This document shows positions 22,290-28,817 of a stretch of 64,000 nt of DNA, in pieces. The notes beneath the pieces are model-generated. The model worked only from the letters and a program-made list of their open reading frames with translations. It was not told the DNA's origin and ran no database searches. The first letter of the stretch is position 1. Every line of letters begins with the position of its first letter. The position numbers and the translations under genes were made by a program. This DNA comes from Gelria sp. Kuro-4 (GTDB lineage: Bacteria > Bacillota > DTU030 > DUMP01), in the NCBI RefSeq assembly GCF_019668485.1, contig NZ_AP024619.1:2411757-2475756 (forward strand). Direction: 5' to 3'.

Positions 22290-23447
22290 TTATCTCCCCA
22301 GCGCATCGCGCACCTTGCGGAAGAAACCCTTGTCTTCGGCCTTGTCGCCGAAAGTCCGGCCCAGTTCCCTCAGCAGCTCGCGCTGCCGCTCGCTGAGCTG
22401 CGTCGGCGTTTCCACGCTTACCACCACGTGCAGGTCGCCGCGCCCGTGGCCCCTGAGGTGGGGCATGCCCTTGCCGCGCAGGCGGAAACGGGTACCGGTC
22501 TGGGTGCCCTCGGGAACCGTCAACCCGGCCTTACCATCCAGGGTGGGAACCTCCACTTCCGCCCCCAGAGCCGCCTGGACGATGTTGAGCTTGATCTCCG
22601 TAAGAAGGTCGTCGCCCTGCCGCGTAAATCGTTTGTGCGGGCGCACGGTGACGAACACATAGAGGTCCCCGGGCGGCCCACCCAGGCGCCCGGCCTCCCC
22701 CTCACCCGCCAGCCGCAGGCGTGCCCCCGTGTCCACGCCCGCCGGAATGTGCACCGTTATGCGGCGCGCGCGCCGGGCCCGGCCGCTCCCGCCGCAGGCG
22801 GTACACGGTTTGGTGACGATGCGGCCCGCACCGTGGCAACGCGGGCACGTCGTAATGTTAACCATGCGGCCGAAGGGCGTGGCGCGCTCCTGGCGCACCT
22901 GACCGCTCCCGTGGCAGGCATGGCACGTTTCCGGGCGGCTGCCCGGCGCCGCGCCGCTGCCGCCGCAGGCAGCGCAGGCCTCTTCGCGCAGCACCTCGAT
23001 ATCCTTCTCCAGCCCGGCGGCAGCCTCCTCCAGGGAGATCTCCAGGTCATAGCGCAGGTCGGCGCCCCGCTCCGGTCCCTGCCGGCGCCCGCGCCCGGCT
23101 CCGCCGAAGAACATGTCAAAGAGGTCGCCAAACCCGCCAAAGTTGCCAAACCCACCAAAATCGCCGAAGCCCCCGAAGTCCGGTCCGGCCCCGCCTCCGC
23201 CGAAGGCCGAAGGATCAAAGGCGGCGTGGCCGAACTGGTCGTACTGCGCCTTTTTCTGCGCGTCGCTCAGTACCTCGTAAGCCTCGTTTATCTCCTTGAA
23301 CTTGGCCTCGGCCGTGGGGTCCCCGGGGTTGACGTCCGGGTGATACTGGCGGGCCAGACGGCGGTAGGCTTTCTTAATCTCTTCCTGGCTGGCCGTGCGG
23401 GGCACACCCAGGACCTCATAGTAATCGCGTTTTGCGGCCAAGCTCAT
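22290..23447 (-). CDS. dnaJ: chaperone DnaJ
   Basis: 385 aa, type I. The J domain has the HPD loop ([10 protein letters not shown]). The G/F region is built from repeated FGGFG units with D or N between them. Four zinc-finger repeats follow ([32 protein letters not shown]), then the substrate-binding C-terminal domains. The start is ATG at 23447; a GTG one codon earlier is equally possible. It stimulates DnaK and belongs to the HrcA-controlled operon. Confidence 0.97.
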
Positions 23448-23470
23448 CACCCCCGGCCTGCCGGCCTGGT

Positions 23471-25310
<1,840 letters not shown>

Positions 25311-25318
<8 letters not shown>

Positions 25319-25964
25319 GCTCCTCGTCTACCTCCCCATTGCCCATATCCGTAGCTTCAGCCTTTTCTTCATCGCTGCATCGCTCTTGCGCCGCGCTTTC
25401 CACTTGGGGCGGCCGGGGGCCCACTTTCACCAGCGTGGGCCGCAGCACCCGATCATGGTAGCGGTAGCCGCGCTGCAGCTCCGCCACCACCACCTCCGGT
25501 TCGCCCTCTTCCCTAAGGAGCGCTTCCTGCTGCTCCGGGTTGAAGGGCTCACCCAGGCCGGGGTCAAGCGGCGTCACACCTTCTTTGGCCAGCACCGCCT
25601 GGAACTGTTTTACTACCTGCTCGACGCCCCGGCACAGGGCTTCGGCCGACGCCGCAGGCGCCGCGAGGGCCCGCTCCAGGTTATCCAGCACCGGGAGCAG
25701 CTCCTTGAGGAGCCGGGCATTGGCATAGGCCGTAAGCTCGGCCCGATCGCGCTCCACCCGGCGCCGGTAGTTCACAAAATCGGCCTTGAGGCGCGTGAGC
25801 TGCGCCAGATAGTCGGCGGCCTTCTCCTCGGTCGCGGCCAGCCGTGCCGCCAGGTCTTCACCTTCGCGCTCCGGCGCCGCCTCCGCCCCCGGCTCGGCAC
25901 CCGCTGCTTCAGCAGGGGCAGCCGGCGCCTCTTCTTCTACCCGTTCTTTTTCCTCTTCCGCCAA
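25311..25964 (-). CDS. grpE: nucleotide exchange factor GrpE
   Basis: 217 aa. A long acidic N-terminal region rich in Glu and Ala precedes the coiled coil ([20 protein letters not shown]) and the beta-wing with [11 protein letters not shown] chose TTG at 25964 because GGAGGTG lies 6 nt upstream; the GTG at 25973 lies inside that ribosome site. GrpE releases ADP from DnaK. It lies between the Group III chaperonin and dnaK. Confidence 0.94.
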
Positions 25965-25981
25965 TCTTCCCACCTCCGGGG

Positions 25982-27562
25982 CTAAAAATCCAGGGCCGCG
26001 CTCTCCGGCGCTTCCTGCACCGGACCGGGCGGGCTCACCGGATCCTTGCGCTTGATGATGGTGTCGATGCGCAAAATGGCCTCGGCCACCTCGCCGGCCG
26101 CTTTCAGGGCATGGATTTTAACCAAGGCCGGGTCGGCCACGCCCTCGGCCAGCATGGGAACCAGCCGGCCGCTCTCACAGCTTACGCCCAGGTCGTCCTC
26201 GCCCTTTTCATTCTGCGCCGCCCACACCTCTTCTATCTTTTCCAGCGGGTTGAAGCCGGCATTGGCCACAATCTGGCCCAGGGGGCGTTTCAAGGCCTCC
26301 ACCACACAGTCTACGCCGTAGGCGCTCATACCGCGCTTCTCTTCCCGCGCCCTGCCCAGCTCGCGGGCCACGGCAATCTCGAGCGCCCCGCCGCCCGGAA
26401 CCACCCCGCCGCGCACCGCCGCCTGCAGGGCTGAAGCAGCGTCGCGGGCGATGCGCTGGCGCTCATCCACCACTTCTTCCGTAGCCGCGCCCACCAAAAT
26501 GGTAGCCAGGGGCTTCCCTTTACCTCCCAGCAGGCGCACCTGGCCGAGTTTCTCATCTTCGTACACCCGGCCGGCAAAGCCCAGGTACCCCTTGAGATCG
26601 GCCGGGGATTTCTTCAAGGCCGAACGCTTCACCACGCGGGCCCCGGTGTGCTCCGCCACCAGCTTCAGGTCGTCGCCGGCCACCTGGTCCACCACAAAAA
26701 CCCCGGCGTCGGTGAGTATTTCCTCGGCAATATTATGCACGCCGCGGCTTACCACCACGAAGCCCACGCCCAGCTCGACCAGTTTGCCCAGGTTGCGGCG
26801 GAACTCTTCCTGCAGCTCCAGGTACTTGCTGAAGCCCGTTTCCGTCCCCAGGGCCTCTTCCTCGATCTCCTCCGGATCGAGGGCGTCGTCCAAAACCAGC
26901 ACCGGCACGTTTTGCTTCTCGCGCGGCATTTGACTGCTGAGGCGTTCCCGGTCCAGGACCAGTCCCAGAAAGACCTCGTTGTCGGCCCCCTCCTGAGCGA
27001 GCACGGTATCCGCCAGTTTGAAGTTCGGGTCGAGGAGCTTCTCCGGGCCGATCAGGCGGGCCGCCTGCACCACCAGCTCGGCGATGTCGCCGTTCTCCCG
27101 CCCGGCGATGTAGGCGATGCGCTCCAGGATGGCGTCATCCAGCCCGCTCACGGGGCGGGCATGGCTCTGGATGAGCTCCAGGGCGCGCCGCACGCCGAAA
27201 CGCAGCCCCTCGATGACCCGGGCCACCGGCACGCCACGCACCACATGATTCACGCCCTCGCTCACGAGGGCGCTGGCCAGGATGGTAGCCGTGGTGGTGC
27301 CGTCGCCGATCTCATCCTGCTGCGCCCGGGCAATGTTGATCAAGAGGCGCGCCGCCGGGTGGTTTACATCCATCTGCTCCAGGATGGTCACTCCGTCGTT
27401 GGTGATGGTCACCTCTCCAAAACGGTCCACCAGCATGGTATCCAGTCCCTTGGGGCCGATGGTCCCTTCTACGGCCGCGGCAATGGCGCGAATGGCATTG
27501 GCGTTGGAAAGCAGGGCGGCCAGGCGTTCATCCACTTCCGCCCCGCCGGTGGTTTGTTTCAT
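25982..27562 (-). CDS. Group III (archaeal-type) chaperonin in the hrcA-dnaK operon
   Basis: 526 aa from ATG 27562 (AAAGGAGA upstream). It is a Cpn60/TCP-1 ATPase: TIGPKGLDTMLVDRFGEV, NDGVTILEQMDVNHPAA, the nucleotide motif GDGTTTATILASAL, and GGVVPGGGALEIAVARELG near the C-terminus. NDGVTIL and MDVNHPAA are thermosome-like, and GroEL-specific features such as a C-terminal GGM tail are absent. Group III chaperonins are known from Carboxydothermus and relatives, encoded in dnaK operons and acting without GroES. The gene sits between hrcA and grpE, so HrcA/CIRCE control is expected. An ordinary groESL is not in the window. Confidence 0.93.
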   Translation of the reverse strand: MKQTTGGAEVDERLAALLSNANAIRAIAAAVEGTIGPKGLDTMLVDRFGEVTITNDGVTILEQMDVNHPAARLLINIARAQQDEIGDGTTTATILASALVSEGVNHVVRGVPVARVIEGLRFGVRRALELIQSHARPVSGLDDAILERIAYIAGRENGDIAELVVQAARLIGPEKLLDPNFKLADTVLAQEGADNEVFLGLVLDRERLSSQMPREKQNVPVLVLDDALDPEEIEEEALGTETGFSKYLELQEEFRRNLGKLVELGVGFVVVSRGVHNIAEEILTDAGVFVVDQVAGDDLKLVAEHTGARVVKRSALKKSPADLKGYLGFAGRVYEDEKLGQVRLLGGKGKPLATILVGAATEEVVDERQRIARDAASALQAAVRGGVVPGGGALEIAVARELGRAREEKRGMSAYGVDCVVEALKRPLGQIVANAGFNPLEKIEEVWAAQNEKGEDDLGVSCESGRLVPMLAEGVADPALVKIHALKAAGEVAEAILRIDTIIKRKDPVSPPGPVQEAPESAALDF

Positions 27563-27621: not shown

Positions 27622-28692
27622 TCAGCCGTCCAAGTCCCGCCCGGCAGCAGGCCCGCGGCCCTCGCCCCGGGAAAAGGCATCGCTCAGGCACCGGGCCATG
27701 TACTCCAGGAGCGCGATTACATGCGGATAATCCATGCGCGTCGGCCCCAGGATGGCCAGCGTCCCGACCGGCCGGCCGTCCACGCTGTAGGTAGAGGTGA
27801 TCACCGCGCACTCCCGGATGGCCGCCAGCTGGTTTTCCTGGCCGATGGTCACGGTCACCCCCGGCTCTCTTTCCAGGAGCTTGTAGAGCAGTTTCTCCTC
27901 TTCCAGGAGGGCAAACAAGCGGCGCACCTTCTCCAGGTCCTGAAACTCCGGCTGGCTCAAAATGTTCTGGGTCCCGCCCATATAAATGCGTTCCCCGCGT
28001 TCGCCTCCGGCGAGCCAGTTCAAAATGGCCCGCGCCAGCTCCGCCAGCCGATTCCGCCGCTTCTGGTAATCTTCCAGGAGTTCGGCATAGAGGTTACTTA
28101 AAAGCTCGCCCGTGATCTCCTCCAGCGGGCGGCCGGCCAGCCGCCGCGTGAAGTAGCGGGCCAGGCCCTCCAGGTCCTCGGGCTGTATCTCCGGCGGCAA
28201 CACCAAAACGCGGCTTTCCACCCGGCCGCGGTCGGTAAAGAGCACCGCCATGGCCAGGTGCTCCTCTAGATGAACCAGCTTCAGGGTTTTGAGCACTCCC
28301 GGCTCCACCCGGGGAGCGACCACCAGGCTGATGTAGTTGGAAACCTGGGAGAGAAGCCGGGACGCCTGGCCCAAGAGCACGTCCGCCTCCCCCGTCCCCA
28401 GGGCGGGAACCTGCCGCAACAGCTCCTCTTCCTCGTGGGTCAAGGGGTTTTTCTGCATCAGATGGTCCACGTAGAAGCGGTAGCCCAGGTCCGAGGGGAC
28501 ACGGCCGGCCGAGGTGTGCGGCTGCTCAAGATAGCCCATCTCTTCCAGGTCGGCCATCTCGTTGCGGATGGTGGCGCTGCTCACGCCCAGGTTGTGGCGG
28601 CGATAGAGGGTGCGCGATCCCACCGGCTCGGCGGTGGCGATGTACTCGCGCACCACGGCCTCCAGCACCCGGCGCTTGCGTTCGCTCAGCAT
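27622..28692 (-). CDS. hrcA: heat-inducible transcription repressor HrcA
   Basis: 356 aa from ATG 28692 (GGAGGTGGGGACA upstream). The N-terminal winged helix contains VREYIATAEPVGSRTL and SSATIRNEMADLEEMGYL, the HrcA hallmarks. The GAF-like dimerisation region follows. HrcA binds CIRCE operators; one lies 56 nt upstream of its own start, making the operon autoregulated. Its activity normally depends on a chaperonin, which here could be the Group III protein encoded next to it. Confidence 0.97.
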   Translation of the reverse strand: MLSERKRRVLEAVVREYIATAEPVGSRTLYRRHNLGVSSATIRNEMADLEEMGYLEQPHTSAGRVPSDLGYRFYVDHLMQKNPLTHEEEELLRQVPALGTGEADVLLGQASRLLSQVSNYISLVVAPRVEPGVLKTLKLVHLEEHLAMAVLFTDRGRVESRVLVLPPEIQPEDLEGLARYFTRRLAGRPLEEITGELLSNLYAELLEDYQKRRNRLAELARAILNWLAGGERGERIYMGGTQNILSQPEFQDLEKVRRLFALLEEEKLLYKLLEREPGVTVTIGQENQLAAIRECAVITSTYSVDGRPVGTLAILGPTRMDYPHVIALLEYMARCLSDAFSRGEGRGPAAGRDLDG

Positions 28693-28747: not shown

Positions 28748-28774
28748 TTAGCACTCTCAGTAGGAGAGTGCTAA
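28748..28774 (-). promoter_or_regulatory. CIRCE operator
   Basis: TTAGCACTC-N9-GAGTGCTAA, a perfect match to the CIRCE consensus. It lies downstream of the -10 hexamer (28789-28794), in the transcribed leader of hrcA, where bound HrcA would block RNA polymerase. Confidence 0.98.
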
Positions 28775-28788
28775 AACAATCCACCCTC

Positions 28789-28817
28789 ACGATAACACCA
28801 AAGCCCGCCCTTGTCAA
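28789..28817 (-). promoter_or_regulatory. sigma-A promoter of the hrcA heat-shock operon
   Basis: Minus strand: TTGACA (28812-28817), 17-nt spacer, TATCGT (28789-28794), with the CIRCE operator starting 14 nt further downstream. Confidence 0.82.

Follow-up and report, generated by a model that had tools for sequence, protein, structure and literature searches.

The 64,000-nucleotide stretch of the Gelria sp. Kuro-4 genome analysed here (the window) holds a chaperonin gene of archaeal type within a bacterial heat-shock operon, which raises the questions of what this protein is and whether the repressor HrcA, encoded next to it, responds to it rather than to GroEL. An earlier note on this DNA had described a thermosome-like Cpn60 gene between hrcA and grpE, behind a perfect CIRCE operator, and had suggested that HrcA may be tuned by this chaperonin instead of GroEL. 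Judged by its sequence, the product of 25982–27562 is a Group III (archaeal-like) chaperonin and an ordinary member of the described family; the gene and its position agree with that description, and the suggested role in HrcA control is not supported.

The chaperonin gene (25982–27562, minus strand) is a complete ATG-to-stop open reading frame of 526 amino acids containing the motif GDGTTTATILA. The order in the window is CIRCE-hrcA-cpn-grpE-dnaK-dnaJ-prmA, with all genes on the minus strand, and the chaperonin gene thus lies inside the dnaK operon, as is typical of Group III genes. The gene for the heat-shock repressor HrcA (27622–28692, minus strand; 356 amino acids from the ATG at 28692) is separated from it by 59 bp, and grpE, encoding the nucleotide exchange factor (25311–25973, minus strand), starts just after it. 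The latter gene, dnaK (Hsp70; 23471–25318, minus strand) and dnaJ (Hsp40; 22290–23450, minus strand) were assigned from their open reading frames and synteny, and prmA follows downstream of dnaJ. The reading frames of grpE and dnaK overlap by 8 bp (25311–25318), which suggests translational coupling.

The operator, TTAGCACTC-N9-GAGTGCTAA at 28748–28774, is a CIRCE with 0 mismatches, located 55 bp before the hrcA ATG. It is the single match in the 64-kb window, where a mean of 0.01 matches is expected by chance at ≤3 mismatches. A sigma-70-like site (TTGACA-17 bp-TATCGT, 28789–28817, minus strand) was picked up by a consensus scan, which would by chance yield ~0.6 matches in this region; its position immediately before the CIRCE makes it a candidate promoter of the operon. 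Its upstream CIRCE and its intact hrcA give the locus the composition of an HrcA/CIRCE regulon.

A search of the rest of the genome for groESL and further CIRCE sites, as the earlier note had proposed, revealed a second perfect CIRCE, ending ~26 bp before an intact groES-groEL pair, so that the regulon of this genome includes a groESL operon with its own operator. When the window genome was compared with 60 relatives, 25 of the 61 genomes proved to carry the Group III gene, and all 25 have a CIRCE-controlled groESL (CIRCE with ≤1 mismatch). They include relative G059, whose chaperonin is at zero tree distance from Ch-CPN, the Group III chaperonin of Carboxydothermus hydrogenoformans, and which is very probably that organism or a near twin. 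Duplicated groESL operons occur in G016, G039, G045 and G046, with a CIRCE at both copies.

Across the phylum, the Group III gene was found in 126 of the 398 species sampled (~1/3). The earlier note had placed it in a few Clostridia in this same operon position; the literature supports the position, but the spread was understated. GroEL is full or near-full in 122 of the 126 carriers, and in one further carrier (G269) it is split over contig ends. A Group III genome lacking GroEL was sought among these 126 carriers, and no credible complete case was found. Three apparent candidates were set aside: in G314 groESL is cut by a contig end, with groES cut off; the G264 assembly reaches 63% completeness; and G321 is fragmented into 210 contigs, and GroEL is present in its relative G277, which is assembled as a single contig. 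A suspected odd chaperonin in G037 proved to be an ordinary GroEL.

All 25 Group III loci examined preserve the order CIRCE-hrcA-cpn-grpE-dnaK-dnaJ, as far as their contigs show it (one contig ends inside hrcA). In a comparison of coordinates for 80 further genomes, the Group III gene was next to hrcA in 79; the remaining one, G169, was rejected as an exception to synteny, as its contigs end at hrcA and at cpn. Matches to hrcA were found in 60/61 relatives, and relatives without the Group III gene retain HrcA and CIRCE to the same extent. In relative G027 (C1:1799380–1800877, L054), the Group III gene is in two pieces, interrupted at about residue 344, and the remainder of the operon is intact; this represents a frameshift, a sequencing error or a pseudogene. 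Relative G055 contains 19 CIRCE-like sites (≤3 mismatches), for instance in L129 and around C6:630000–632044. Most of them are palindromes of the type TTAGCACTC..GTCTGCTAA, and an open reading frame beside such sites (L129, 1541–2302) resembles, by eye, a REP-associated transposase; the sites look like REP-type repeats that mimic a CIRCE arm.

In Bacillus subtilis, HrcA is known to be modulated by GroEL. If the Group III chaperonin tuned HrcA activity, whether instead of GroEL or in addition to it, a feedback loop would be closed inside one operon, and the invariant adjacency of the gene to hrcA in >100 genomes fits such an arrangement. So does the residual correlation of 0.33–0.52 between HrcA and chaperonin distances, obtained in several subsets of a mirror-tree analysis controlled for DnaK, DnaJ and GrpE. 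However, the correlation was 0.14 and lost significance (p 0.17) when the window's family was reduced to a single member, the unrelated neighbour HemW gave a similar value (0.41) in the full set, and operon membership fully explains the adjacency to hrcA. We therefore give the mirror-tree result no weight in either direction. For tuning in place of GroEL, one would expect a genome without GroEL, or with a GroEL outside the CIRCE regulon; the 25 Group III genomes are of neither kind. Since all of them have a CIRCE-groESL, the window genome included, the canonical partner of HrcA was never replaced, and the availability of GroEL throughout the carriers removes the reason to seek another; the equal retention of HrcA and CIRCE where the Group III gene is missing also speaks against the proposal. 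We consider it improbable that the Group III chaperonin tunes HrcA. A related idea, in which HrcA of bacteria with Group III chaperonins answers to GroEL as well as to the Group III protein and so senses how heavily both types of chaperonin are loaded, also seems unlikely to us.

The description that we regard as highly likely is that of a standard bacterial Group III chaperonin in an HrcA/CIRCE-repressed dnaK operon, co-induced with the operon and working alongside DnaK and GroEL. Under heat or folding stress, HrcA would leave both of the genome's CIRCE sites. The Group III chaperonin would then be made together with GrpE, DnaK and DnaJ, presumably by co-transcription, and GroES-GroEL would be made from their own CIRCE operon. 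By extension from Bacillus subtilis, HrcA would probably be kept active by GroEL, and the Group III protein may add folding capacity, possibly by taking clients of DnaK, a hand-over suggested in the literature. To what was observed directly (the gene, its order, the operators, the residues and their conservation), analogy with Ch-CPN would add a built-in lid, two eight-membered rings and GroES-independent folding.

The assignment to Group III is based on overall similarity, on an alignment of the ATP site and nucleotide-sensing loop, and on a tree. Thermosome family models score the protein at 292 bits and GroEL models at 162–185 bits, all below their cut-offs, as would be expected of a third group. 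The best matches among solved structures are a resurrected ancestral chaperonin (9RWQ) and then Ch-CPN (5X9U), the best natural match, with 48% identity over 506 residues and 464 bits. Identity to bacterial Group III proteins is 45–90%, compared to 31–32% for thermosomes and 28% for the GroEL of the same genome. As a side observation, 9RWQ is labelled 'Ancestral Group II Chaperonin (ACII)' by its depositors, yet its sequence behaves as Group III: it matches the window protein with 663 bits, against 301 bits for 9RWP, which has the same label. 9RWQ is probably the ACIII of PMC12696368.

The Ch-CPN residues compared were those named in PMC5635000. All the ATP-site residues checked (N55, D56, D87, T89, T91, I152, R155 and D373) are conserved in the alignment, D56 and D373 together with the GDGTTT P-loop. 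A shortened nucleotide-sensing loop, with Arg155 replacing Lys, is a criterion for Group III (PMC5635000); the six-residue extension that forms this loop in Group II is absent from the window chaperonin, and its R155 is aligned with R155 of Ch-CPN. The apical-domain residues L237, F243, Y246 and F253 and the lid-region residues L238, F244, Y247 and F254 are likewise conserved. Two features that the earlier note had used are present but not diagnostic: GDGTTTAT of the nucleotide motif also occurs in GroEL, and the missing GGM tail is shared with the GroEL of the same genome. This GroEL (C1:2719168–2721128, L002) ends in PPGAGDMDY, and the GGM repeat is absent from the GroELs of several relatives as well.

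The phylogeny against GroEL, thermosome and bacterial Group III sequences, which the earlier note had asked for, confirmed its view that the protein is Group III and not GroEL. The window chaperonin forms a clade with Ch-CPN and the bacterial Group III proteins, close to Ch-CPN, and is separated from 15 GroELs by a branch with 100/100 support; in this small tree, which includes three thermosomes, the split between Group II and Group III is weakly supported (52/81). A divergent GroEL duplicate, for which the shared GDGTTT ATP motif and the weak scores of the GroEL models could be cited, is contradicted by that branch, by the higher thermosome scores and by Ch-CPN as the top natural match, and has next to no probability. 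That an archaeal thermosome entered the dnaK operon in a recent transfer, in keeping with the thermosome-like sequence and its alignment with a built-in lid, is just as implausible: the low identity to thermosomes, set against that to bacterial Group III proteins, and a syntenic slot unchanged over many families of the phylum mean that any transfer must be ancient.

The window protein adds one more sequence to a described family and has little significance alone. The survey adds the distribution of the gene over the sampled phylum, and it indicates that the Group III gene accompanies, and does not replace, a CIRCE-controlled groESL, which narrows its possible function.

Compared with known systems, the window chaperonin shares the chaperonin superfamily and CIRCE control with the Group I GroEL of its own genome, which differs in its low identity, its separate locus with groES and its lack of a built-in lid. 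Archaeal Group II thermosomes, such as that of Thermococcus KS-1 (1Q3R; 31% identity), have a similar domain layout and ATP site, but the window protein is without their six-residue extension of the nucleotide-sensing loop and has a shorter lid segment. Ch-CPN (PDB 5X9U/5X9V; An et al. 2017, PMC5635000) shares the fold family, the catalytic residues, the missing nucleotide-sensing loop and the CIRCE-hrcA-cpn-grpE-dnaK-dnaJ context; the differences are the 48% identity and a C-terminal tail of the window protein's own, KDPVSPPGPVQEAPESAALDF. An et al. 2017 (PMC5635000) describe 195 Group III sequences, all but one of them from dnaK operons, and both this position and HrcA control have already been stated for Group III chaperonins (PMC5635000, PMC5220055, PMC5904260). 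The arrangement is thus one already described in the literature, and the window gene is a further member.
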